A program made the position numbers and the translations under genes. A DNA stretch of 64,000 nucleotides from Hysterangium stoloniferum (taxonomy: Eukaryota > Basidiomycota > Agaricomycetes > Hysterangiales > Hysterangiaceae): assembly GCA_015178975.1 (NCBI GenBank), contig WHVD01000130.1, forward strand, positions 124,001-188,000. Direction: 5' to 3'. Of the stretch, positions 6,981 through 48,215 are shown one piece after another. The notes under the pieces were generated by a model, which searched no databases, had not been told where the DNA came from, and saw nothing but the letters and a program-made list of their open reading frames with translations. Numbering within the stretch: position 1 is the stretch's first letter; every line of letters begins with the position of its first letter.

Positions 6981-9000
6981 TCATCAAGTTCCTGGCTTAT
7001 CTGGAGCTGCCAGCCAATTCATAATTGCCTACGTTATTGTGGTCTAGAACCACAGACTCGCTAGAGTTGCTTCTCATTGAGAGCCTACGATCTTACTACA
7101 TATAATGCACCGAGAATGCTGTTAATTTAGTTTCTTGGGCACCGAGCACTGGCACTTGCCAAAATCTCACATGGCATCCGCGGCAAAAATTCAAGCAGCA
7201 ATTGTAAAGTAACTACCTCGTGCCATGATTTCGCACACAACACTGACCGTAGATTTCCAGTAATATTTGGACTTACACCGATTTGGCAACACTAGGTCTG
7301 TCTACACAAAGTCGCAGTTGTTTGCCACACTATATAGACGGGCATCTCAGTTTGGTTTAGTTGTGATACAATCTTGACTCTTCCAGCGGAAATCCAGTTC
7401 GTATGGAAGAGTAGGATCAGAGTAGCATCTGTGCTGTACATCATCGCCCGATATTCACACCTACTCAAGTATATACTTGCTGCCGCCATTAACCTATATT
7501 CAGCAGATGTACCATTAGAGGTGTGTGGTGGGATGGGCCTGAAAATGGCCCTTGACTTACAGCAGTTTATAGTGTGTGGTACCATTTGAGCCCTCAGGTT
7601 AGTTGTTTACTGATTATCCATAGGGCATGTCATGGACTATTCCACACCTCGGCTGTTCTGGGAGCTGTAGCGGCGCTTAGTGGACACGGTGATTAATCTA
7701 TTTATCATTTACTTTCTCAAATAACTCAACCAAGATGGATGTCAGGGGTGTTACTTACAAGGGTTTACGCGATAAGCAAGGATAATAAATACCTCTTAAC
7801 TCCAATCTTGTTCACATATCTTGGAGAAGTCTCCTGTCGTGTGGTGTGTTTACCTATTGGCAATATATGGACGGGTATACCCATGAGTGTGATAGCTTAT
7901 CTTAGCCTTTGAAGATTGCATTTCTTGGACCGGCATCAAACTGTTCGTTTTACTTACGTAGATCCACGCGATTGTGTATTAATTAACATCATTAAACAGG
8001 GGTACAGAAGTCGATTGCATATACCTGGAGACCTCGAATTGACACGATCGTTATAGAGTCAGCAACAACCGCTCTTTTAATTACGTTTGATGGGCTCATA
8101 TTATTCACCACATTGTTCCACACCATTGGCATGATTGGGCTACAAAGAGGTATTAAAGGATTGCGGAAACGATCTATAACCTATATATTTGTACAACAAG
8201 GTAATTTATCTCGCTTTTGAGGTTACATGTTATTATGACCCTCATGATATTAATTGCAGGTGTTCTCCGATTTGCGTTAGTGCTAAATTAACGTGACTTC
8301 CGTTGATGAAATGTTGATTTTTCTTTGTCAGCGTAATTTTCATATGGAATTCACAGCTCCTAATTACGAATAAGGTTTGGGATTATTACCGTTTTTCCCC
8401 TTTTTCACTGATACTATGACATTTTTTTTAAGTTTGTCTCAGTGAATATCTTTTATCCCCTCAGAATTCTATACCACGCATTCATCTCACATCCAAATAT
8501 AGGCCGCATTTAGAGACTTGGGCGCAAACTTCGAAAGCTGGCAAGTATTTATCGCATACACTTCGCCCAACTTCTTAATCTCAAGTGCAGCATATCCATC
8601 CTTCCCATTTGCCGCTTCTTTCTCGATCTGCGAGAATTAAACTCATCATGTAACACGATTAATATGACGAACAATGTCGTGCTCACTACCTTCCGGGCGA
8701 CCGTACGCGGTATCGAACATTCTTTGATTGAGGACGTTGGAGATAATTATATAGGAGATTTTATTTCGCGGGGACGTTGTGAAGGAGAAATCCTTGTCCA
8801 TTCCACAGAGGGGTGTGAGGAAACCTCTGGTGGGAGACTTGAAGGCCTTGCTGCACACTAATGTAAGGGGGTAATCTGCTGAATATTACCACTGACCATG
8901 CAATGAAAGACATTTATGACACTTGATGAAGTAAAATAAAGGGCTCCAAAAGTCGTTGGATACAGTTCACATGTCGTCTAATTTTTCTATAGATGTATTT
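6981..9000 (+). repeat. Amplified module, copy A (continues 4198-4420)
   Basis: Near-identical along its length to 27690-29700 (copy B), more diverged from 32200-34260 (copy C), with shorter copies at 13731-14210 and 18207-19960. Near position 9000 the homology to copy B stops at GATGTATTTA, where the DIRS-like element begins. Confidence 0.85.
7345..8862 (+). pseudogene. DUF6533-like membrane protein, copy A
   Basis: Plus strand. A first exon around 7366-7590 encodes TILTLPAEIQFVWKSRIRV and VLYIIARYSHLL, the pattern of basidiomycete DUF6533 proteins, which are predicted multi-pass membrane proteins of unknown role. Further conserved exon-like blocks follow: a hydrophobic stretch about 8035-8205 (matching ITLTIAFDGLIFFTTLF in copy C), a short exon starting VLRFA after a CAG near 8260, and about 8600-8862 with a C-terminal TTFRATVRGIEHSLIEDVGD. 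The order matches copies B and C. I could not derive one clean spliced frame: stops fall between blocks and inside the first exon after VCGTI. Decay is likely, though missed introns are possible. Confidence 0.55.
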
Positions 9001-15890: not shown

Positions 15891-16275
15891 CTTTAAAGAG
15901 CAGCTATTGAAGAAGCAACTGCAGAGAAACTAAGCATCTCACATTGTTTGTTGCATACATAACACTGACCGACGGTTTTCAGTCATCTTGAGATTTAAGT
16001 TCCGAACATAAAGGATTTGATTTCATCCACGTGAGACGTGTTGCAAGAGGTGTCCCCTAGAGAAGATTATAAGAGTGGCAAAAAATGGTGGCACAGTCAA
16101 AATATTAATTGTTCTTCCCAGGTTCCGTAACGACTGCTGATGGTGAGGGAGTAGAAGAGAACAGTCACGAGGAACACCAAGAAGACGAAAAAGAGATGGC
16201 TGGAAAGCCGGGTGTAATGCCTCCCCAGATTGCATCTTCTAATAACGTGTTTAAACGACAAACATTTGGCGGTTC
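15891..16275 (+). repeat. Module region between gene copy and LTR-like insertion
   Basis: Homologous to 26915-27420 (shared GCATCTCACATTGTTTGTTGCAT-type words; CGACTGCTGATGGTGAGGGA at about 16131) and in part to 31680-31890. No gene seen. The paralogue carries a MITE where this copy reads straight through GAGTAGAAG. Confidence 0.7.
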
Positions 16276-16519
16276 TGTCAGATTATATAATACCAACCAT
16301 TGTTCCAACTGGGTCCATATGATGTACAGCTCTGAGTTCAGTGTGTATATGATCTAATAGGAATGGCACTTAGGGTTATATCCTTAAGTACAGTGTAAGA
16401 CCAAACCTACCCAAGGTCAGATGGTATAGTGGTTAACACCTTTGTTATGTAATTGAGAGATCCTGGGTTCAATCCCCAGTCTGGCTATTCATTTTCTACA
16501 TTACTTATGTTCTCTAACA
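16276..16519 (+). mobile_element. LTR-like insertion carrying a tRNA-like sequence
   Basis: 244 bases beginning TGTCAGATT and ending CTCTAACA, flanked by a perfect 5-base duplication GGTTC (16271-16275 and 16520-16524). The paralogous module at 27413-27425 lacks it and reads GGCGGTTCTCTCCGTGGG. The second copy (25328-25573, opposite strand) has the tidier ends TGTTAG...CTAACA. TG...CA ends plus a 5-base TSD suggest a solo LTR or a TRIM-type LTR. A tRNA-like sequence with pol III boxes sits inside at 16415-16486. No coding frame. Confidence 0.8.
16415..16486 (+). tRNA. tRNA-like sequence (Thr TGT-like, degenerate anticodon arm)
   Basis: 72 bases. The acceptor arm GGTCAGA/TCTGGCT pairs throughout with G-U allowed. 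A box TGGTATAGTGG (16422-16432), B box GGTTCAATCC (16466-16475), T stem CTGGG/CCCAG intact. A TTTT run follows at 16492-16495. By position the anticodon would be TGT (Thr), but base 33 is A instead of U and the anticodon stem is weak, so decoding function is doubtful. Most likely a tRNA-derived pol III unit within a mobile element. Confidence 0.55.
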
Positions 16520-16601
16520 GGTTCTCTGTGTGGGAGTAGACCTGATGCACAGTGGGGTACAGGGGTAGATACTTAATACAAGGGGGGCTACTGCAGTTAT
16601 A

Positions 16602-18204
16602 CAGTGAGGGACAAAACCCTTCCAATGATTTTTAGTTGTGCAAAGATTCTTGAATAACTCAAGAACCACTGTAGATACAGACCTGAAATTTGGTGGTTGG
16701 TTAGGTCTATATGTTATCTATATGCCATTAAAATATTATGACATAAGCACTGGTATTTTCCATGCTATAAATAAAATAATAATAAAATCACATTGGAAGG
16801 GTTTTGTCCCTGGTATAAAAAGAACACAAATCAAACAATCTAGTACTTGGTATAGTCTCCCTTGGCCTTCAAAACAGCCTCAACTCTTCTAGGCATACTC
16901 TCTATCAAATTCTGACAAGTAGAGGCAGGGATCTTCTCTCACTTTGTCTAAACCTCTCCCACAACTTATGAATACTCTTGGGTGCCACTTCATACTCTCC
17001 CAGCCTCTTTTTGAGGTAATACCAGAGGTGTTCAATTGGATAAGGTCAGCAGACTGAGGTGGTCATACCATGACCACAAATCCATTATCTTTAAACCAAT
17101 TGGTGGCCTTCTTGCTCTTGTGTTTGGGATCATTATCTTGCTGAAAGACCACATCTTCTGTGTTCTTGCCATAATACTTCATGATTGCTTGAAGTTCATC
17201 TTCCAGAATGCTAACATAAAGGTCAGCATCCATCCTTCCATCAATTTTGGTGGAATATTCTGGTCCTTCCCACAACATACAGCTTCACAACATCAGATTT
17301 CCTCCTCCAAACTTGACTGTACCCTCAACCACCCTATCACTGAGCCCCTCTCCTGCCCTTTTCCATACCTACTTCCTCCCATCTGGCCCCAAACAATTGA
17401 TTTTTGTCTCATCTAACCAAACAAACCTCTTCCAATCATCCACAGTCCAGTCCTTGTGTCCCAGAGCAAAGCCCATTCTTGCCTTACTATACCTCTTAGT
17501 GAGTAAAGGCCTTTTTCTCTTCACCACAGCTCTCATTCCAGCTTTCTTGAGTGCTCTATGAAAAGTCTTCACTGAAATGGACTTTCCAGTCATATTTTGA
17601 AGGATTTTGGTGACCTCAGTGGCATGTTCTGCCTTCTGAGAAGTGATTTGTTAGAGGGAATAATGAATATCTGAGGGAGAAAGCTTGCATGGATGGCCAC
17701 CAGGTGCTTTGGCAAGTGATGGGCAATGGGTAAAGTGAATTCTGGATATAGTAAATTGACCTCTGCCAGTGATTGCAGAGATCTGAGAAGCAGACTTGCC
17801 CTTATTGAGCAAAATGAAAATGTAGCTAACCTGAGGAGGAGTAAGAGCTTTCATGGTGTAGAATGTTGAGTTGTGGGGATTTTGTTGAACTAGAAAGTGA
17901 ACAGCTATATATATATCTAATTTTGACAGGTCACATGATTTTTATTTGCACTTCTTTGCATATAATCAATAATGTTTTGTGCTGAGCATGTGACTGGGAC
18001 AAAACCCTTCCAATGTGATTTTATTATTATTTTATTTATAGCATGGGAAATACTAATACTTATGTCATAATATTTTAAGAGCATGTAGATAACATGTAGA
18101 CCTAACTAACCACCAAATTTCAGGCCTGTATCTACAGTGGTTCTTGAGTTATTCAAGAATCTTTGCACAACTAAAAATCATTGGAAGGGTTTTGTCCCTC
18201 ACTG
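16602..18204 (-). mobile_element. Tc1/mariner transposon
   Basis: 1603 bases flanked by TA (16600-16601 and 18205-18206). Long inverted repeats of about 215 bases start CAGTGAGGGACAAAACCC and end in its complement. The uninterrupted module at 27483-27500 (CAGTTATAACTCTAC) shows the empty TA site exactly. The inner end of each inverted repeat carries the same GGGACAAAACCCTTCCAATG motif in the opposite orientation. The transposase is on the minus strand and broken. Confidence 0.95.
16880..17854 (-). pseudogene. Tc1-type transposase (DD34E), broken
   Basis: Minus strand. The start (MKALTPPQVSYIFILLNKGK, SASQISAITGRGQFTISRI) is a paired-like helix-turn-helix for inverted-repeat binding. Then KSISVKTFHRALKKAGM, the first catalytic Asp in FVWLDETKI, the second in FQQDNDPKHKSKKA, and the Glu in YPIEHLWYYLKKRLGEYEV. 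Breaks: a stop and frame change near 17650, another near 17370-17280, a TGA in place of the Trp of the usual VMVWPPQS motif (near 17068), and a frameshift just before PIEHLW. The enzyme cuts and pastes at TA sites; this copy is not functional. Confidence 0.9.
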
Positions 18205-19100
18205 TAACTCTACTCTATAAATATATCCCCAGCAAATGCACGTGGCATCAGGATATCAAATAATTGAGGTGTATGATTGTACTCATTTGCCACAGATGGG
18301 TTATTGTGTTCTAGAGCCACAGACTCGTTAGAGTTGCTTCTCATGAGCACATCAGTAAAATGGTATTTGTTCTGGATGGCTCCCAGAGGAGGTCCCCCAT
18401 TCTAGGAAGCTCCTGGACATTGTGGAGTGTGTGGAGCATCCCAGAATAGGTGTACCTCCTCCCAGCATTTAATACCATTTTATTGATGTGCCTGCGATCA
18501 TACTATCCATAATGCACGAGTATGCTGTGAATTTAATTTCTTGAGCAGCCAAGAGTGATGCAACACTGGCACTTGCCAAAATCACACATGACATCTGTGG
18601 CAGATAATCAAGCAGCGACTGTAAAGTAACTATTGTTTAGTTATAATACAATCTTGACTCTTTCAACAGAAATCCAGTTCGTATGGAAGGGTAGGATCAG
18701 ATTAGCATCTGTACTGTATGTCATCACCTGATATTCACTACTACTTGAGTGTATATTTGATGTCGCCATGGATTTAGCACATACACCATTAGAGGTGCAT
18801 GGTGGAATAGGTCTGAAAGTGTCCCTTGACTTACAGCAGTTGATAGTGTGTGGTACCATTTGAGTCCCCAGGCTAGTTGTTTACTGATTAGCCATAGGGC
18901 ATGTAATGGACTTTTCCACACCTCGGCAGTTCTGGTAACTCTAGTGGCACTTAGTGGACACGGTGATTAATCTATTTACTTTCTCAAATAACTCAACCAA
19001 GATGCATGTCAGGGGTATTACTTACAAGGGTTTACGCTATTAGCATGGATAACAAATATCTCTTGATTCTTATCTTGTTCATATATCTTGGAGAATTTTG
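18205..19100 (+). repeat. Amplified module, copy D (partial)
   Basis: Continues the module interrupted by the Tc1 element. Homologous to 27486-28520 with deletions, and holding a MITE at 18350-18488. It includes a degenerate DUF6533-like exon (18655-18860) with TTTCAACAGAAATCCAGTTC in place of CTTCCAGCGG. Further homology resumes at about 19785-19960 after an AT-rich block. Confidence 0.75.
18350..18488. mobile_element. MITE, copy 1
   Basis: 139 bases with terminal inverted repeat CATCAGTAAAATGGTATT / AATACCATTTTATTGATG. It is inserted in the module relative to 27768-27800. The flanking dinucleotides are CA and TG, consistent with a decayed TA duplication (compare copy 2). No coding capacity. 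Confidence 0.8.
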
Positions 19101-25327: not shown

Positions 25328-25573
25328 TGTTAGGAAACATAAGTAATGTAGAAAATGAATAGCCAGACTGGGGATTGAACCCAGGATCTCTCAATTACAT
25401 AACAAAGGTGTTAACCACTACACCATTTGACCTTGGGTAGGTTTGGTCTTACACTGTGCTTAAGGATATAACCCTAAGTGCCATTCCTATTAGATCATAC
25501 ATATACACTGAACTCAGAGCTGTACACCATATGGACCCAGTTGGAACAATGGTTGGTATTATATAATCTAACA
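25328..25573 (-). mobile_element. LTR-like element with tRNA-like sequence, copy 2
   Basis: 246 bases, TGTTAGGAAAC...ATAATCTAACA, the reverse complement of 16276-16519. Perfect TGTTAG/CTAACA ends. The flanks (CAGCT left, GAGCA right) do not match, and the right flank joins directly to the 42-base repeat array, so a rearrangement at the left is likely. Confidence 0.75.
25361..25432 (-). tRNA. tRNA-like sequence, copy 2
   Basis: The 72-base counterpart of 16415-16486. A and B boxes are kept (one change in the A box). One acceptor-stem pair is lost (GGTCAAA against TCTGGCT). The same weak anticodon arm is present, so the defect predates the copies. Confidence 0.5.
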
Positions 25574-25990
25574 GAGCAGCAGGTGTGGGCTTGCCAAGGA
25601 TTTAAAGAAGTATTCAGAAAAGAGCCGTGGAGCTGCCAAGAATCTAGAGGAGCATTCAGATAGGATGGACGGCCATGCCAAGAATTTAAAGAACCATTCA
25701 AAGAGAAATGTCGAGCTTGCCAAGATATTAAAGAGGCATTCAGAAAGAAGTATCAAGCTTGCCCAATATTTGAGGGAGCATTCAGAGAAACACACCGACT
25801 TTGCAAAGAATTTAGAGGGGCATTCCGGGATGAACGAGCTTACGAAGTATTTAAGGAGGAACCACAAGTTTACCAAGAATTTCGATGGGAGTTCGGGGCA
25901 GTTGCAGCAGCCATCAACCTTGGTATGTGACCCCTTGACGTGCATCAGTCTACCAGTATCTTCAATTTATAATTGGTGTCTCTAGCCAGG
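25574..25990 (+). repeat. 42-base tandem repeat array, copy 2
   Basis: About seven units. The plus frame giving GHAKNLKNHSKRNV, ELAKILKRHSERSI and KLAQYLREHSEKHT is open across the array, then runs into STL and a GTATGT site at about 25922. The alternative plus frame that is open in copies 1 and 3 has a TAG here (25662). About 60 bases present in copy 1 after the array are deleted. Confidence 0.6.
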
Positions 25991-26930: not shown

Positions 26931-27510
26931 AGAAGCAACTGCAATGAAACTAAGCATCTCACATCGTTTGTTGCATATATAACACTGACCGAGGGTTTTC
27001 AGTCATCTTGAGATGTAAGTTCCGAACATAAAGAATTTGATTTCGTCCACGTGAGACGCGTTGCAAGAGGTGTCCCCTAGAGAAGATTATATGAGTGGCG
27101 AAAAAAAGGTGGCATGGTCAAAATGTTAATTGTTCTTCCCAGGTTCTGTAACGACTGCTGATGGTGAGGGAGTACATCAGTAAAATGGTATTAAACGCTG
27201 GGAGGAGGTACCCCTATTCTGGGATGCTCCACACGCTCCACAACGCCCAGGAGCTTCCTAGAATGGGGGTAGCCATACCATTTTACTGATGTAGAAGAAA
27301 ACAGTCACAAGGATCACCAAGAAGACGAAAAAGAGATGGCCGGAAAGCCGGGTGCAACGCCTCTCCAGATTTCCTCTTCTAATGACATGTATGAACGATA
27401 AACATCTGGCGGTTCTCTCCGTGGGAGTAGACCTAATCCAGAGTGGTGTACAGGTACATACTTAATACAAGGTGGCTTTACCACAGTTATAACTCTACTC
27501 CATAAATATA
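26931..27510 (+). repeat. Module region with MITE insertion
   Basis: Homologous to 15910-16600 and 31680-32050. It contains the MITE at 27175-27291 and the empty sites for the tRNA-bearing insertion (27413-27425) and for the Tc1 element (27483-27500). Confidence 0.75.
27175..27291. mobile_element. MITE, copy 2
   Basis: 117 bases with CATCAGTAAAATGGTAT / ATACCATTTTACTGATG termini and TA on both sides (27173-27174, 27292-27293). The paralogue at 16147-16160 (GAGGGAGTAGAAG) is the empty site. TA duplication indicates mobilisation by a Tc1/mariner transposase. Confidence 0.88.
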
Positions 27511-29700
27511 TCCCCAGCAAATGCACATGGCATCAGGATATCAAATAATTGAGGTGTACAATTATACTGATTTGCCACAGATGGAAGGCAGCCAATGGCA
27601 GATGGCAGATGGAAAGGTACTATGCAATCATGAAGCGATGGGAATTTTCTATATGAAGGAAATTATTGGGAATCAAATAAGTACTCTCATCAAGTTTCTG
27701 GTTTATCTGGAGCTGCCAGCCAATTCATAATTGCCTAAGTTATTGTGTTCTAGAACCACAGACTCGCTAGAGTTGCTTCTCATTGAGAGCCTACAATCTT
27801 ACTACATATAATGCACCGAGAATGCTGTTAATTTAGTTTCTTGGGCACCTAGCACTGGTACTTGCCAAAATCTCACATGGCATCCGCGGCAAAAATTCAA
27901 GCAGCAATTCTAAAGTAACTACCTCTGGCCATTATTTCGCACGCACCACTGACCGTATGTTTCCAGTAAGATTTGGACTTACACCGATTTGGCAACACTA
28001 GGTGTGTCTACACGAAGTCGCAGTTGTTTGCCACACTATATAGACGGGCATCTCAGTTTGGTTTAGTTATGATACAATCTTGACTCTTCCAGCGGAAATC
28101 CAGTTCGTATGGAAGAGTAGGATCAGACTAGCATCTGTGCTGTACATCATCGCCCGATATTCACACCTACTCAAGTATATACTTGCTGCCGCCATTAACC
28201 TAAATTCAGCAGATGTACCATTAGAGGTGTGTGGTGGGATAGGCCTGAAAATGACCCTTGACTTACAGCAGTTTATAGCGTGTGGTGCCACTTGAGCCCG
28301 AAGGTTAGTTGTTTACTGATTATCCATAGGGCATGTCATGGACTATTCCACACCTCGTCTGTTCTGGGAGCTGTAGCGGCGCTTAGTGGACACGGTGATT
28401 AATCCATTTAGCATTTACTTTCTCAAATAATCAACCAAGATGGATGTCAGGGGTGTTACTTACAAGGGTTTACGCGATAAGCAAGGATAACAAATACCTC
28501 TTAACTCCAATCTTATTCACATATCTTGGAGAAGTCTCCTGCCGTGTGGTGTGTTTACCTATTGGCAATAGTTGGACGGTATACCCATGAGTGTGATAGC
28601 TTATCTTAGCCTTTGAAGATTGCATCTCTTGGACCAGCATCAACCTGTTCGTTTTACTTACGTAGATCCACGCGATTGTGTATTAATTGACATCATTAAA
28701 CAGGGGTACAGAAGTCGATTGCATATACCTGGAGACCTCGAATTGACGCGATCGTTATAGAGTCAGCAACAACCGCTCTTTTAATTACGTTTGATGGGCT
28801 CATACTATTCACCACATTGTTCCACACCATTGGCGTGATTGGGCTACAAAAAGGTATTAAAGCATTGCGGAAACGATCTATAACCTATATATTTGTACAA
28901 CAAGGTAATTTACCTCGGTGTTTGAGGTTCCATGTTCTTATGACCTGATGATATTAATTGCAGGTGTTCTCCGATTTGCGTTAGTGTTAAATTAACGTGA
29001 CTTCCGTTGATGAAATGGTGATTTTTATTTGTCAGCGTAATTTTCATATGGAATTCACAGCTCCTAATTACGAATAAGGTTTGGGATTATTACCATTTTT
29101 TCCCTTTTTCACTGATACTATCACATTGTTTTTAAGTTTGTCTCAGTGAATATCTTTTATCCCCCCAGAATTGTATACCACGCACTCATCTCACCTCCAA
29201 ATATAGGCCACATTTAGAGACTTGAGCGCAAACTTCGAAAGCCGGCGAGTGTTTATTGCATACACTTCGCCCAACTTCTTAATCTCATGTGTAGGATATC
29301 CATCCTTCTCATTTGCCGCTTCTTTCTCGATCTGCGAGAATTAAACTCATCATGCAACACGATTAATAGGACGATCAATGTTGTGCTCACTACCTTCCGG
29401 GCGACCGTACGCGGGATCGGACATTCTTTGATTGAAGACGTTGGAGATAATTATATAGGAGATTTTATTTCGCGGGGATGAAGGAGAAATCTCCCTCCAT
29501 TCCGCAGAGGGGTGAGAGGAAACCTCTGGTTGGAGACTTGAAGGCCTTGCTGCACAGTAATGTAAGGGGGTTATCTGCTGAATATTATCACTGACCATGT
29601 AATGAAAGACATTTATGACACTTGATGAAGTAAAATAAACTCCAAAAGTCGTTGGATACAGTTCACATGTCGACTAATCTTTCTATTGATGTATTTATTC
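27511..29700 (+). repeat. Amplified module, copy B
   Basis: Uninterrupted counterpart of 4230-4420 plus 6981-9000. It serves as the empty-site reference for the LTR element. Confidence 0.85.
28050..29500 (+). pseudogene. DUF6533-like membrane protein, copy B
   Basis: Plus strand. Exon block 28070-28295 (TLPAEIQFVWKSRIRLASV, IIARYSHLLKYILAAAINL), hydrophobic block about 28740-28905, then 29287-29481 (LICRFFLDLRELNSSCNTIN, TTFRATVRGIGHSLIEDVGD). About 95 percent like copy A by eye. No complete spliced frame could be assembled. A hydrophobic integral membrane protein is inferred from the family. Confidence 0.5.
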
Positions 29701-31680: not shown

Positions 31681-34260
31681 TGTGCCGGAGAGGAGAATAC
31701 AAGAGTGGCAAACTAAGCCACGTTCGAACTATTAAGAAAGATTTGTTCTTCCCAGGTTCCGGAATGACTGTTGATGGTGAGTGGGGAGGACCAGGAAGGT
31801 GTGGGTGGAAGGCTGGGTGTAACGCTTCTGCAGACTGCCTCTTCTAATAACGCGTATGAGCGACAAACATCTGAGGGCTCTCTCCGTGGGAGTTGACCTG
31901 ATGCAGAGTGGTATATGGGTACATACTTAGTACAAGATGGCTTTACCACAGTTACAACTCTATTCCACAATGATGTGCCCTATACGGGTACATACTTAGT
32001 ACAAGATGGGTTTACCACAGTTACAGCTCTACTCCATAACTATCTAGTTGAGGTGCATGATTATACTGATTTGCCACCCATAGAAGACGGTAGATGGAAG
32101 ATGGAAGATGGCAGCTTACTATGTAATGATGAAGTGATGGTAATTTGCTATGACGGAACTTCTTGGCGCTCAAATGAGTCTCATCAAGATTCTGATGGAG
32201 CTGGTAGCTGTGAACCTGTTCCTCCAATTCATAATTGCGTAAGTTATTATGTGCCAAAGCGACAGACCGCTTAGAGTTGCTTCTCACCGAGCGCCTGCAA
32301 TGAGAGTATTTGCAACTAATATATATTAGCAAACTGAATGGTGTTCCTGATATGTTGCGTTTGCTACTGTTTCATTAGTTTCAAATACTGTCGTAGTGCA
32401 CCGAGAATGCTAGTAATTTAATTTCTTGAGCAGCTAAGAGTGACCCAGCACTGGTACTTGCTAAAATCTCACATAGCATCCGTGGGAGATATTCAAGGAG
32501 CAACTGTAAAGTAACTATCTTAGGCCATTTCATCGCACACAACACTGACCGTAGGTTTCCAGTAAAATTTGGATTTACGCCGATTTTGCAATGCTAGGTC
32601 TGTCTACACGAAGTGGCAGTTGTTTACCACACTATACGGCATCTCAGTTTTGTTTACTTATGATACAATCTTGACTCTTCCGGCGGAAATCCAGTTTGTA
32701 TGGAAGAATAGGATGAGACTAGCATCTGTGCTGTACATCATCGCCCGATATTCATCGCTACTTCAGTTAATATTTGCTGTTGCCATTGATTTAGCAGATA
32801 CACCGTTAGAGGTGCGTGGTGGGATGGGCCTGAAAATGTCCCTTGACTTACAGCAGTTGGTAGTGTGTGGTACCATTTCAGCCCTCAGGTTAGTTGTTTA
32901 CTGATTAGCCATAGGGCATGTAATGCACTATCCCACACCTTCGCTGTTCTGAAAACTTTAGCGGCGCTTAGTGCACACGGTCATTAATCTATTTAGCATT
33001 TACTTTCTCAAATAACTCAACCAAGATGAATGTCAGGGATATTGCTTGCAAGGGTTTACGCTATAAGCAGGAGCCACAAATACCTCGTAATTCCGATCTC
33101 GTTCATATATCAATGTGTGGACCGGCATACCCATGAGCGTGATAGGTTCTCATTGTCCGCCTAGAATGTGTTTCTGAAGCCATTATCAAAATGTGCGTTT
33201 CACTTACCCAGAACCACGTGACTGTGTATTAACATCACTAAACAGGGGTGCAGAAATCTGGAGACCTCAATTTGACACGATAGTCGCAGCAATAATCGCT
33301 CTGACAATTGCGTTCGATGGGCTCATATTTTTCACCACATTATTCCACACCATCGGCATGATTAGGCTACGAAGAGGTCTTAAAGAATTGCGGAAACGAT
33401 CTATAGGCTATCTACTTATGCAGCAAGGCAAGTTATCTCGATGTTTATGTTTAAATGTTGTTATGACTTGAACGTATTAATAATTGCAGGTGTTCTCCGA
33501 TTTGCGTCAGTGCAATATTAACGTGACCTCAGTTGATGAAATTTTAATTTTGATTGTTTAGCATAATTTTCATATGGGTTTTACAAATCCTAATCACAGA
33601 GAAGGTTTGGGATTACCGCTCCTTTCCCTCTTTTAACTGATACTACTACATTTCTCCTAAGTTTCTCTCAGTGAAGATCTTTTGTCCTTTGAGAATTCTA
33701 TACCACGTACTCATCTCACATCCAATATAGGCCGGATTTACATACTTCGCGGGAAACTTCGCAACTTGGCAAGTATTTATCACACGCATTTCGCCTAATT
33801 TATTAATATCAACTGTAGCATATCCACCCTTCTCGTTTGCCGTTTCTTTCTCGAACTGCAAGAATTGAACTCATCGTGTAACGCGATCACTACGACGAAC
33901 AATCTCGTGGTCTCTACTTTCCGAGGGGCGGTACACAGTATTGGAGATTATTTGACTGAGGACGTCGGAGATGCAAACTGTACAGGAGATTTTATTTCAA
34001 GGACACATTGTGAAGGAGAACTCCCCGTCCATTCCGCAGAGGTCTCACTAAACCTCTTATGGGAGAGTTGAAGGCCGTGATGCACAGTAATGCAAGGGGG
34101 TTCTGTGTCGAATACTATGAGTGCAGTTAAAAGCATTGAAGACAGTAGAATAAGTATGATAAAGGCCACAAAAAGCTATTGGCATGGTTCATATGTCGAG
34201 TAATTATTCTATTTATTCAGGGCGCAAGAGTATGAATATTTCCATTTAATTATTTATCAA
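31681..34260 (+). repeat. Amplified module, copy C (most diverged)
   Basis: Homologous to copies A and B with many substitutions. A short direct duplication of about 66 bases (ACATACTTAGTACAAGATGG at 31921 and 31990) is specific to this copy. Confidence 0.75.
32569..34071 (+). CDS. DUF6533-like membrane protein, copy C (best preserved)
   Basis: Plus strand. Exon 32569-32900 is open through the DUF6533-like signature (LFTYDTILTLPAEIQFVWKN, VLYIIARYSSLLQLIFAVAI) and on to VVCGTISALR with a GTTAGT after CAG. A second open block, 33193-33470, holds VAAIIALTIAFDGLIFFTTL and RLRRGLKELRKRSIGYLLMQ. A CAG|GTGTTC junction near 33490 gives GVLRFASV. A last block at 33800-34071 gives LLVCRFFLELQELNSSCNAI and VVSTFRGAVHSIGDYLTEDV. 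This follows the usual layout of these 7-TM-like fungal proteins of unknown function. Exact splicing is unresolved, so this may be a gene or a recent pseudogene. Confidence 0.55.
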
Positions 34261-44062: not shown

Positions 44063-45400
44063 TCAATCTAATAATACATCTTTGTACACTATATTTGCAG
44101 TTCTCTTTGACTCCTTCTCTAATAATATTTTAACCCTATTCCAACTTCTTCCCCTTGAAAGTCCTACATACAATTGCCCATGTCCCAACACAGCCGTTCT
44201 CAAATCTAATCCTACTAATTTCAAAGATTGTCCCTGTGACTTGTTAATTGTCATTGCAAATGCCAGTTGTACTGGAAACTGAACCCAATGAAGTTTAAAA
44301 GAGAGTTCATCATCATTTGTAATGATTTTAATCCTTGAAATAAATGCCTCTTCCCCAGCACATGGTCCAGTTAAGATCTGCACCAAAAGCAAATTATTTT
44401 GCATTTTGAGTGGTCGTAATTTTGTACCATTGAAAATTCCCATCTGTGTTCCGTAGTAGCATTAAAGGTACTCCTGGCTTCATCTCAAGTCGACTTGGTG
44501 AAATTCCACCAAAGTTGAGACTATTTAAATATTCCACAGGATAGACTTCTGCCTCCATGTCACCCTCTGCAGTGTCAGCACTATGGTAGACATGACTCAC
44601 TCCAGGGAATCTATTCAGAAGTTCTGAATTAATTTCTTCCACATCTGAATTTCTAGGACACAGAATAGCATGGTCTAAGAAGTCTCCATCTTGCCAATCT
44701 CTTTGGTCTCCATCCACACGGATGTCTGGATATATCTCAGCAATTAGATCAGACATTTCTGAACCACAGATCATATGAGGAGGGATATCCATAATATGAT
44801 CCAAAGACAAATCCTTTCCGTGGCCTACATCTAAGAGCCACTGAGCAAACTGATCACTGTGTGGATCATGCTGATCAACCCGCATATTCTTTTTCAAGAA
44901 AGGTACCTTGACATGGTTCCAGAGTTGAGATTTTTGAATACATTCACCAATAATCTGTTCTTTAGAGGCACGTTATACAACAGGCAAAGTCTGCTGTAAG
45001 TCACCTCCCCAGGCAGCAAGAATGCCTCCAAAGGGGAGAGAGCATCTTTGTCTAATACATTCCTTAGAGTTCTGTCAACTGCCTCACACATGAAACGTGA
45101 CTGCATTGGAACTTCATCCCAGATAATGAGGCATACTTGCTTCATGAGCTCTGCCTTTTCTGAGCCCTTTTTGATGTGACATGAGGAGTCCTTCTCGCAG
45201 GGAACAGGAATTGAAAACATACTATGAGAGGTGTGACTGCCTTTCAGAATCATTGATGCAATTCCAGATGAGGTGACACAAAGGACAATGTAGCATTTGG
45301 CACGACATGCATGTGCAAGAGTATTCCATACAAAGGACTTGCCAGTGCCACCTGGACCATTGACAAGAACATTTTGCCCTCCTGCTGCTCATCAACTGCC
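44063..45400 (-). pseudogene. Helitron Pif1-type helicase
   Basis: Minus strand, several frames. NVLVNGPGGTGKSFVWNTLA (Walker A, about 45375), CRAKCYIVLCVTSSGIASMI, CLIIWDEVPMQ (Walker B, about 45110), WGGDLQQTLPVV then a TAA where the family has Gln, RASKEQIIGECIQKSQLWNH, FLDHAILCPRNSDVEEINSE, GVPLMLLRNTD, NGTKLRP and the final FPVQLAFAMTINKSQGQSL with LYVGLSRGR (motifs V and VI). Shifts at about 45370, 45040 and 44440. ATP-driven 5'-3' unwinding during rolling-circle transposition is the family role. Inactive copy. Confidence 0.9.
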
Positions 45401-46977
45401 TTGATGATAGTGTCAAAAGCAACTTGTTGTTCAGGATTGAACTTTTCAAGATTGGCCTGGGCACTGGCATGCTCATGATCAAGATTATAATTCTTCTGCT
45501 CCCTAATGAGATGATTGCCAATGAACCGATCCCAATTGTCAGTGATTTGTGGCCTGGTTGGATAGAGTGAAAGAGACTTTCCAGAATAGGGGAGGATTTT
45601 ATCAATCTGATAGAGACCAAAGTCATAAATTGTGTGGGATGCTGCATTGTCAATATTATATGTAACCCTCAGGATCCAGTCCAAATCATCACAGATAAAT
45701 TCTTTGAACTCATTCCAGAGTTCTTGAGGTTGTGCAGGGGAGGGCATGGTCAAAATGATGACAAACAACCTGCGAAGTTGAAGGCCAGGCTGTATGTGAC
45801 TGGCTTCTCTGAGGCACATGTTCAACTGGAGATCATCTTCAAGCAAATCATATGCAACACAGGCTTGTTGAAATGTGGGATGGGTCTCACCCTGAAAAGT
45901 CCTGAGATTTTCAAATGAGGTGGCACCTTGGACGACAGTGAGCAATGTACGGACGTGGAATCTTCCACCACTGGCAGCATTGACAAAATGGATGCATCCT
46001 ATGGAAAAACCACTTTGATGTGGCTTCCATGATTTAGTCCTAGCTACAAATGTAAAATACTCTGGAAAATCCATATACAATGTGTCCCTGGCATGGTGAC
46101 CATTGTAGCCAATGAGATCCTTGGCATTAGCTTCAAAATAAGCCATTAGAGTTGTGCCAGCACACTCTGCCCTTTGTAAAGCCTCAGCAGGACCCTTATC
46201 AGCATCAAAAATGACAGTGTTTTCCCCAGGGAGGTGGACACAAAGTGTTATTACTGCAGGAACCTGGGTGTGGAGTTCATTGCGCATTAATCACCAGACA
46301 GACTCATGTGCACTAACATATCGTGTATCAAGATACTGTTTAATCTCATCTGGTGTCTTTCCAACCTCCATAGTTGTGTGATCGGGGCCTTTGTAACAGT
46401 ATTTATGCATATACTTCATTGATCTATTGGTAAAGACCAACTCAACATTGATATGGCACTCAAAGGTGAGAAGCAGAATAGGAGAGTAAGGAACAACATA
46501 TCTGTTGTCATATGTAAACTTGGGAGTTTCATGAACCCTCCCATTATTGGGATGAAGGTAGAATGGATAGCCTTCCTGATTAACAATGGTGGCTTTACAC
46601 CAATCCTTTGGGAAGAATTTACCACATGTCCCATTGGCCATACAGGCAGCATTTGGATGATGAAGACAACAGGGGCCATGGGTCATGAGTTGACCTACTA
46701 AATTAAATAATCTCGGATGTGTTTCAGGATCTGGAAAACAGGCAGAAATGTTTGAATCAACATCTGCAGGTGTCCTTGGCTTATCCTGCTCCTCAAACCA
46801 TATAAGACAGTGCATGTGTGGAAGACCCCGTTTTTGGAATTCAATGACATGAATATGTGCTACCATTTTACCAAAGATATGGGCCTCTGTAATCATTTTC
46901 AGCATCTTAGCCTTTTTAATAGCAAAGACACGTGAGACCAAATCAGGGCGATCAGCAGGGGTCTGGCCAGGAAGCAA
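45400..46977 (-). pseudogene. Helitron Rep (HUH) domain and linker
   Basis: Minus strand. The HUH motif appears as FQKRGLPHMHCLIW (His-Met-His). GTCGKFFPKDW and LTFECHINVELVFTN follow. The tyrosine region is EIKQYLDTRYVSAHESVW with two Tyr five residues apart. A TGA (46291-46293) follows, where the family has Arg (WRL). After it the frame resumes: HTQVPAVITLCVHLPGE, FPEYFTFVARTKSW and, near the helicase, EKFNPEQQVAFDTIIKAVD. The domain nicks and joins DNA at the element ends through the tyrosines. Confidence 0.9.
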
Positions 46978-48215
46978 TTCACGGGTGACCTCCTCTCAAT
47001 TGGGATTAGCAGTCATGGTGATGAAGCAGCTGGCATTGCCATATTTGCATGCAATTGCAAAAGAATTTTGCAGACTTTGTCTCATATCCCTTGAACCGCC
47101 AGTAAATGAAGAAGGGAGTATGACCCTCTGACTGATACTATTGGGATTGATATCATCATTTGAAAAAGCATCAACAGCCTGGTTGTAGAGTTTTGCACGT
47201 TGATTTTCACTCAGAAACTTCAATCTGCTCTGTTCTGTGACTGCCCAGGCATCAACAATGTACTGCTGGAACAGCTTTTGTGTATAAAAAATGGTTTTGG
47301 CCTCATTTGCTCTAAGAAATAGGCAATAGGCATCATATTCACTCTGGATCACCTTACGACTTTTGTCTTCTTCTTCAGCTTGTTCATGCTGCTGTGCAGC
47401 CTGGGACTGCCAATTGTTATTTGCATAGGGAATGTCCCATGACCAACCATGCTCACCCCTGGCAAAGAGCATGACATAATGAAGGGGTGTATAAATGGCC
47501 TGTCCTTCATGCAATCGATGGAAGGGCCCCCCCCCCTTCTCTGAATGATAATATCCCTTGGGTCACCCTGACCTGTATCACCATCTCCAGGCACAATGAC
47601 TGCAAGTTCATTACCAGTTGGAAGGTTGTACCGTTGGGGATCAGTAAAAGCCTTGTAGCTCAGTCTAACATGTAACCTTGGAGTCTCTGTCTGTGTCCTC
47701 AATCACTCATGTGCCTGGCGATAGAGTGCTATAAAAGGATTATATTGCTCCATCATGTCCTGCAAGTCAGAAAAGGTTTGATTATTTAGATTTAGATTTG
47801 CCCTGTGATTCTGCCTTATCTGCAATGCATTCCCCAGTGCATCCTCACATGCCAGTGCAGGATCATGGATGTAAAGCTGAGCATAACTGGGTGATACATC
47901 TTCCCTGTATGGGATTAAGGAACCATGCTCATGATACAATCCACCATGTATTTTAAAGACATATAGGCCCTGACCACCTTGCAAGACAGACTCATCCAAT
48001 TTGACACCAAGTGATATAAATGCAAATGCATTATTATATGCACGAATATTTTTGTGAAATTCCTTGGCATTGTCTGTATTATCCTCAATAAGAGACTTTA
48101 AGGTATGAGGGAAGTATTGGAAGGATGATCTTTCCTTGCCTGCAACACTTGCCAAACTTTGGTGTTGTCCAAGAGCTAGCTGACAGATGCTCATCCATCC
48201 AGTGTAAAGCTCCAC
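46978..48215 (-). pseudogene. Helitron-like N-terminal domain (upstream of Rep)
   Basis: Minus strand. Segments: SLIEDNTDNAKEFHKNIRAY, YVFKIHGGLYHEHGSLIP, AQLYIHDPALACEDALGN; a TGA (47703-47705) before LRTQTETPRLHV; LPTGNELAVIVPGDGD; then after a frame change at about 47500 AIYTPLHYVMLFARGEHGW, VDAWAVTEQSRLKFL, LPSSFTGGSRDMRQSLQNSF and FITMTANPN followed by a TGA (46996-46998), where NW is usual. This is the conserved part between the Pro-rich start and Rep in fungal Helitrons. Two of the stops look like single transitions. Confidence 0.85.

Follow-up and report, generated by a model that had tools for sequence, protein, structure and literature searches.

The window analysed here, a 64,000-nucleotide stretch of Hysterangium stoloniferum DNA, carries two solo LTRs that almost certainly belong to a Helenus-type TRIM, referred to as F1 in this text. 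Our full account, which we consider quite likely, describes F1 as a non-coding element of about 654 bp whose LTRs contain a degenerate tRNA gene serving as a promoter for RNA polymerase III (pol III). The pol III step itself is inferred and moderately probable. Complete copies of F1, together with two related families that we call F2 and F3, were found in the host genome (111 Mb in 554 contigs, in which the window corresponds to C36:124001-188000). The following features could be located in the window:

16276..16519, plus strand: F1 solo LTR, copy 1, TGTCAG...CTAACA, 244 bp, flanked by GGTTC on both sides
16271..16275, no strand: left TSD GGTTC of copy 1 (direct reading)
16520..16524, no strand: right TSD GGTTC of copy 1 (direct reading)
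16415..16487, plus strand: tRNA-like sequence of copy 1, presumed pol III promoter, anticodon arm degenerate (ARAGORN; Rfam RF00005, 35.9 bits)
16466..16476, plus strand: 11-nt stretch GGTTCAATCCC of copy 1, which we take to be the B box (exact in 59/60 full-length LTRs, the other having a one-base deletion)
16492..16495, plus strand: TTTT after the tRNA-like part of copy 1, presumed weak pol III terminator (direct reading)
25328..25573, minus strand: F1 solo LTR, copy 2, TGTTAG...CTAACA, 246 bp, without TSD
25360..25432, minus strand: tRNA-like sequence of copy 2 (ARAGORN; Rfam, 36.3 bits)
27411..27415, no strand: single GGTTC in the related empty module (sequence comparison)

The original prediction had described copy 1 as an LTR-type insertion with TG...CA ends and a perfect 5-bp TSD, and we could confirm both directly. 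It had also given copy 2 the ends TGTTAG/CTAACA, which is correct; copy 1 starts with TGTCAG, one base away from the TGTTAG of the family. The tRNA-like unit that it placed inside both copies was recognized by ARAGORN and, above the gathering score, by Rfam. In copy 1 this unit is 73 nt long, its 35.9 bits compare with a gathering score of 29, and the predicted TTTT run follows. Beyond these two units, an Rfam scan of the 64-kb window gave no match reaching E 0.5. ARAGORN reports an anticodon of four bases (given as atgt) for both, so the unit in the window is not a normal tRNA. The pattern TGTTAGATTATATAATA, allowing up to 3 mismatches, occurs twice in the window, with 0.33 matches expected and 3 of 100 shuffles reaching 2.

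When the flanks of copy 1 are joined, they align to a module at 27316-27491 that lacks the insertion and contains GGTTC only once, in agreement with the earlier proposal that this paralogous module represents the empty site. They also align, more weakly, to a third module at 31802-31936, which is likewise without an insertion. The flanks of copy 2 read TGCTC and AGCTG on the strand of the element and thus form no TSD, and the window holds no empty module related to the left flank of this copy.

Large repeated modules (7141-8744, 27687-29448, 32443-33972 and their neighbours, about 80-99% identical in the best stretches) lie near the empty sites of copy 1. Adjoining the first LTR, at 16600-18206, are two inverted arms of 234 bp (91%) spaced 1139 nt apart, mariner-like by their look. 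A repeat with 42-bp spacing occupies 25584-25818, and Helitron pieces are found on the minus strand at 44897-46995, where Pfam identifies PIF1 helicase and Helitron_like_N domains. An epimerase gene in the window has its nearest proteins at 73-85% identity; among the matches viewed, the named entries are Agaricomycetes at 46-53%, for example Cerrena zonata and Boletus edulis, plus one plant entry at 42%, which points to the class only.

Further copies and full elements with two LTRs, a PBS and a PPT, for which the original prediction had suggested a search, are both present in the host genome. A search with the LTR yielded 418 candidates, and the 40 that were scored, copy 1 among them, were all full length and at least 97% identical. 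For the initial 19 LTR bases (up to 2 mismatches), the genome holds 159 matches vs 5 for the reversed control; for the tRNA unit's 3' half (up to 3 mismatches), the numbers are 309 vs 0. The excess of 309 over 159 may stem from the looser pattern, from truncated copies or from further families. Among the matches listed, which reach into C534, 82 of 100 exact LTR starts are accompanied by an exact tRNA 3' half 165-195 bp downstream, 3 by one further off (within 3 kb) and 15 by none; this pairing covers exact matches, with mismatched copies falling outside the list.

A complete F1 element consists of two 244-bp LTRs enclosing an internal region of 166-169 bp, with the PPT AAGGGGGTG ahead of the 3' LTR (for example C520:313317-313970 and C9:59870-60526). 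The element in locus L031 measures 654 bp in total, and we judge it to be non-coding from this size and the length of its internal region; both of its LTRs score 49.0 bits as tRNA. A search with the internal region returned 17 full-length matches and one starting from base 21, among the 40 of 122 candidates that were scored.

For a closer comparison we assembled 60 different full-length LTRs from the fetched loci and the window. They were chosen by similarity, so that the sample leans towards young copies. Sixteen are followed by a PBS, 17 are preceded by a PPT and 27 have neither (one LTR in L073 that has both is counted among the 16). The original prediction had made its reading depend on the tRNA part staying with the same ends throughout the family, and indeed all 60 LTRs keep the tRNA part together with these ends, two of them lacking a single base of this part. 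The 27 solo LTRs are flanked by a perfect 5-bp TSD in 22 cases and by one with a single difference in 3; in 2, including copy 2 of the window, the flanks differ by more. When other lengths were tested, 3 bp gave 1 perfect TSD, whereas 4, 6 and 7 bp gave 0. Perfect 5-bp TSDs also surround 13 of 14 two-LTR loci (the exception is L083). Seven of the 14 LTR pairs are identical, four more with matching lengths show 1, 4, 4 and 6 differences, and three are of unequal length. These perfect TSDs and identical LTR pairs indicate that F1 has moved recently.

The short, dispersed and tRNA-bearing copies might at first glance be taken for a tRNA-derived SINE with TG...CA ends by coincidence. SINEs of this kind lack LTRs and have TSDs of varying length, whereas F1 has direct LTR pairs around a PBS and a PPT and TSDs fixed at 5 bp, and we consider the probability of this explanation to be practically negligible.

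The likely primer is the initiator tRNA-Met. A pattern for this tRNA matched 9 places in the host genome (control 3), three of which read TTGGCGCAGTGGAAGCGC. The one place that was read, C112:350965-351100, is called tRNA-Met(cat) by ARAGORN. Once CCA is added, the 3' end of this tRNA is a perfect complement to the start of the F1 internal region over 14 nt; for F2 (locus L089) the complementarity covers 13 nt. Other tRNA matches form dense groups at C112:913507-1219099 and C68:744746-852232; the one read from each group (L104 and L105) is called tRNA-Lys(CTT), with an intron.

F2 was reached by searching for the LTR end joined to the PBS. Its LTR is about 206 bp and its internal region about 109 bp long, and its tRNA-like unit spans 77-80 nt. 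Seven F2 loci were obtained, three of them without an outer end; all four with both outer ends recognized have perfect 5-bp TSDs. F3 surfaced when the genome was queried with the internal region of F1. It is represented only by LTR-like units, about 245 bp long, in which the tRNA-like part lies close to the 3' end. None of the nine F3 loci (L057 to L065) came up to the Rfam gathering score for tRNA; a unit at C2:482011-482084, assigned to F3 by eye, scores 42.7 bits. Both ends were recognized in three F3 copies, two of which have perfect 5-bp TSDs and the third one that is off by one base. The F1 internal region (L031:862-1027) shares its bases 29-115 with a stretch of the F3 LTR at 85-90% identity, so that one of the two families probably acquired this stretch from the other.

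How might the tRNA unit be used? In the mechanism we propose, pol III would begin transcription in the 5' LTR, at its tRNA unit, read past the short T4 run of this LTR and through the internal region, and terminate in the 3' LTR, either within its tRNA unit or beyond it. With such a start and stop, the tRNA part would serve as the repeated (R) region. The weak terminator would let the polymerase pass the first LTR and halt it in the second, in parallel to Cassandra, where pol III is described as passing the first LTR and stopping in the second (PMC10886601). The RNA would then be copied and inserted by proteins that an autonomous LTR element supplies, probably one of the Copia type, and the tRNA unit would act as a promoter, not as the source of a working tRNA.

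The alternative that the element spreads working tRNA genes is very unlikely. The acceptor, D and T arms can pair in F1, and F2 units reach up to 50.4 bits, which would favour it, but the anticodon arm folds poorly and has four anticodon bases in both window copies. The anticodon arm is also the most variable portion of the unit (columns 168, 169 and 179), and the pair 169/179 is broken in 9 of 60 copies (8 A-C, 1 T-T). A functional tRNA is likewise held unlikely for most Helenus families (PMC10886601).

The same decay of the anticodon arm would fit a passenger role, in which the unit is left over from a SINE or tRNA gene once inserted into the LTR, and transcription of the element depends on an ordinary pol II promoter in the upstream part. 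Conservation of the promoter boxes does not speak against this. The 60 LTRs show 0 substitutions in the B box, where one copy has a one-base deletion, and 1 in the A box, but among windows taken along the LTR, 32 of 234 equal the B box in freedom from substitutions and 70 of 233 equal the A box; given such equally constant stretches elsewhere in the LTR, the constancy of the boxes is not significant. Variation amounts to 1.19% across the tRNA unit, against 0.88% upstream of it and 1.93% in the tail. The fold of the unit does not stand out from shuffled sequences (z -1.52, with 17 of 200 shuffles as good). However, the LTRs of F1, F2 and F3 are largely different, and yet each carries a tRNA-like unit near its 3' end (identities of the units are 52/85 for F1-F2, 57/79 for F1-F3 and 60/83 for F2-F3). 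This recurrence in three families is easier to understand if the unit is used. Boxes A and B are, moreover, described as conserved in Helenus (PMC10886601). We regard a passenger as rather unlikely and prefer the promoter.

A T4 run follows the tRNA unit in 58 of the 60 F1 copies; of the other two, one has both T4 and T6, and in the second the run was not located. Among the 13 host tRNA genes read, the first T run is T4 in 3 and T5 to T8 in 10. One of these three T4 genes (L106) resembles the F3 unit and, judging by this likeness, may itself be a transposon piece. A depletion of T4 between the two tRNA units was considered, but the counts are within chance (0 vs 1.3 expected in F1, 0 vs 1.6 in F2). 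A source gene for the F1 unit was also sought among the 13 host tRNA genes; none is close (best local score 23).

A Copia partner would be recognized by its first internal bases, TGGTAGCAACTCC. Searches of the host genome gave no autonomous partner. The LTR end joined to the PBS matched 101 times (control 0). Many of these matches read CAAACATGGTAGC(C/T)ACTCC; two of these (L094 and L095) lie inside long frames that look Gypsy-like by eye and do not represent an LTR end. The 27 exact sites for ACA followed by the PBS (control 0) comprise 20 in F1, 6 in F2 and 1 other (L092), which has no reading frame of 110 codons; these sites provided no partner. Neither did the 26 matches to an internal motif shared by F1 and F2 (control 0), and an extended perfect PBS had no matches in the host genome. 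In L072 (C146), within bases 1200-2517, a primer site of the F1 type directly borders a frame that looks Copia-like by eye and has no matching 5' LTR. The internal region at this locus is split by 836 bases with ACTTGGT on both sides.

The shared internal motif, TGCCCAAGATCGAACCTGGAGTGTAG, is 26 nt long and with up to 3 mismatches has 26 matches in the genome vs 0 in the control. By position the matches fall in F1 or F2 elements; one (C179, L110) is assigned by sequence only. Within the motif, CCCAAGATCG-AACCTGGAGT can be aligned, with one mismatch and one gap, to the initiator tRNA in sense orientation, over its T arm and acceptor stem (CCCAGGATCGAAACCTGGAGT). This alignment scores 30, a value that 0 of 1000 shuffles reach in either family (largest 25 and 22), and the other 12 host tRNA genes score at most 18 against the motif. 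In F1, the internal region folds better than shuffled sequences (z -3.46, 2 of 200 as good), and pairing between motif and PBS closes a long hairpin. In F2, however, there is no such closure and 136 of 200 shuffles fold as well (z +0.50). A PBS-motif pairing common to both families is thus not supported.

Common ancestry of the F1 and F2 internal regions suffices to explain why both have the motif, although it may possibly have a function. For example, a sense copy of the T arm of the primer tRNA could pair with the PBS or mimic the primer and so time the start of reverse transcription. We consider this quite unlikely. If true, a single element RNA would hold both a lock (the PBS) and a decoy key (the T-arm copy), and a primer-like motif used in this way would be a new mode of priming regulation. 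A full-text literature search for primer mimics in retrotransposons returned nothing on TRIMs, judging by titles.

Elements of this type have been described before. The original prediction knew only Cassandra as a parallel and regarded a tRNA-bearing LTR as a new solution in fungi. Neither claim can be upheld, because Helenus was named in 2024 for TRIMs with tRNA-like LTRs from rusts, Agaricomycetes and animals (Kojima, PMC10886601). Judged by titles and the opening lines of abstracts, the literature searches turned up no further description of this kind of element. F1 has the features of a TRIM (two direct terminal repeats with TG...CA ends, a length below 1000 bp, a PBS after the 5' LTR and a PPT before the 3' LTR) and those of Helenus (tRNA-derived sequence in the LTR and a 5-bp TSD). 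Since it shows the defining features that can be tested, the relation to autonomous Copia elements proposed for fungal Helenus (PMC10886601) aside, we place F1 among the Helenus-type elements. This placement is by description, not by comparison with published consensus sequences, and the family may already be listed.

Like F1, fungal Helenus are mostly unable to encode a working tRNA, and like the families of this genome they include the initiator tRNA-Met among their primers, leave many solo LTRs and occur as several families per genome. Some fungal Helenus are primed by the 3' end of this tRNA, as are F1 and F2, whereas most use an anticodon loop, most commonly that of initiator tRNA-Met (PMC10886601). 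The internal sense copy of the initiator T arm in F1 and F2 is a further difference; none is mentioned in the main text of PMC10886601. Cassandra shares with F1 the TRIM organization and LTRs that carry a pol III gene unit, but this unit is a 5S rRNA gene, and the element belongs to land plants; in the window and 16 loci, only RF00005 (tRNA) was matched. Ajax, from two nemerteans, is also a TRIM with part of a pol III promoter in the LTR and a 5-bp TSD, yet it is 5S-derived and uses tRNA-Leu as primer (PMC10886601). Pol III transcription has been reported for Cassandra, while for Helenus/TRIMp3 it is expected, without validation, in the same source (PMC10886601). With this analysis, the Helenus-type elements gain a family with recent activity, along with two relatives, from a mushroom-type fungus in whose genome tRNA predictions can be transposon pieces. 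The pol III step, still unproven for Helenus, could be tested directly on the F1 copies with identical LTRs, which are well suited to this purpose.
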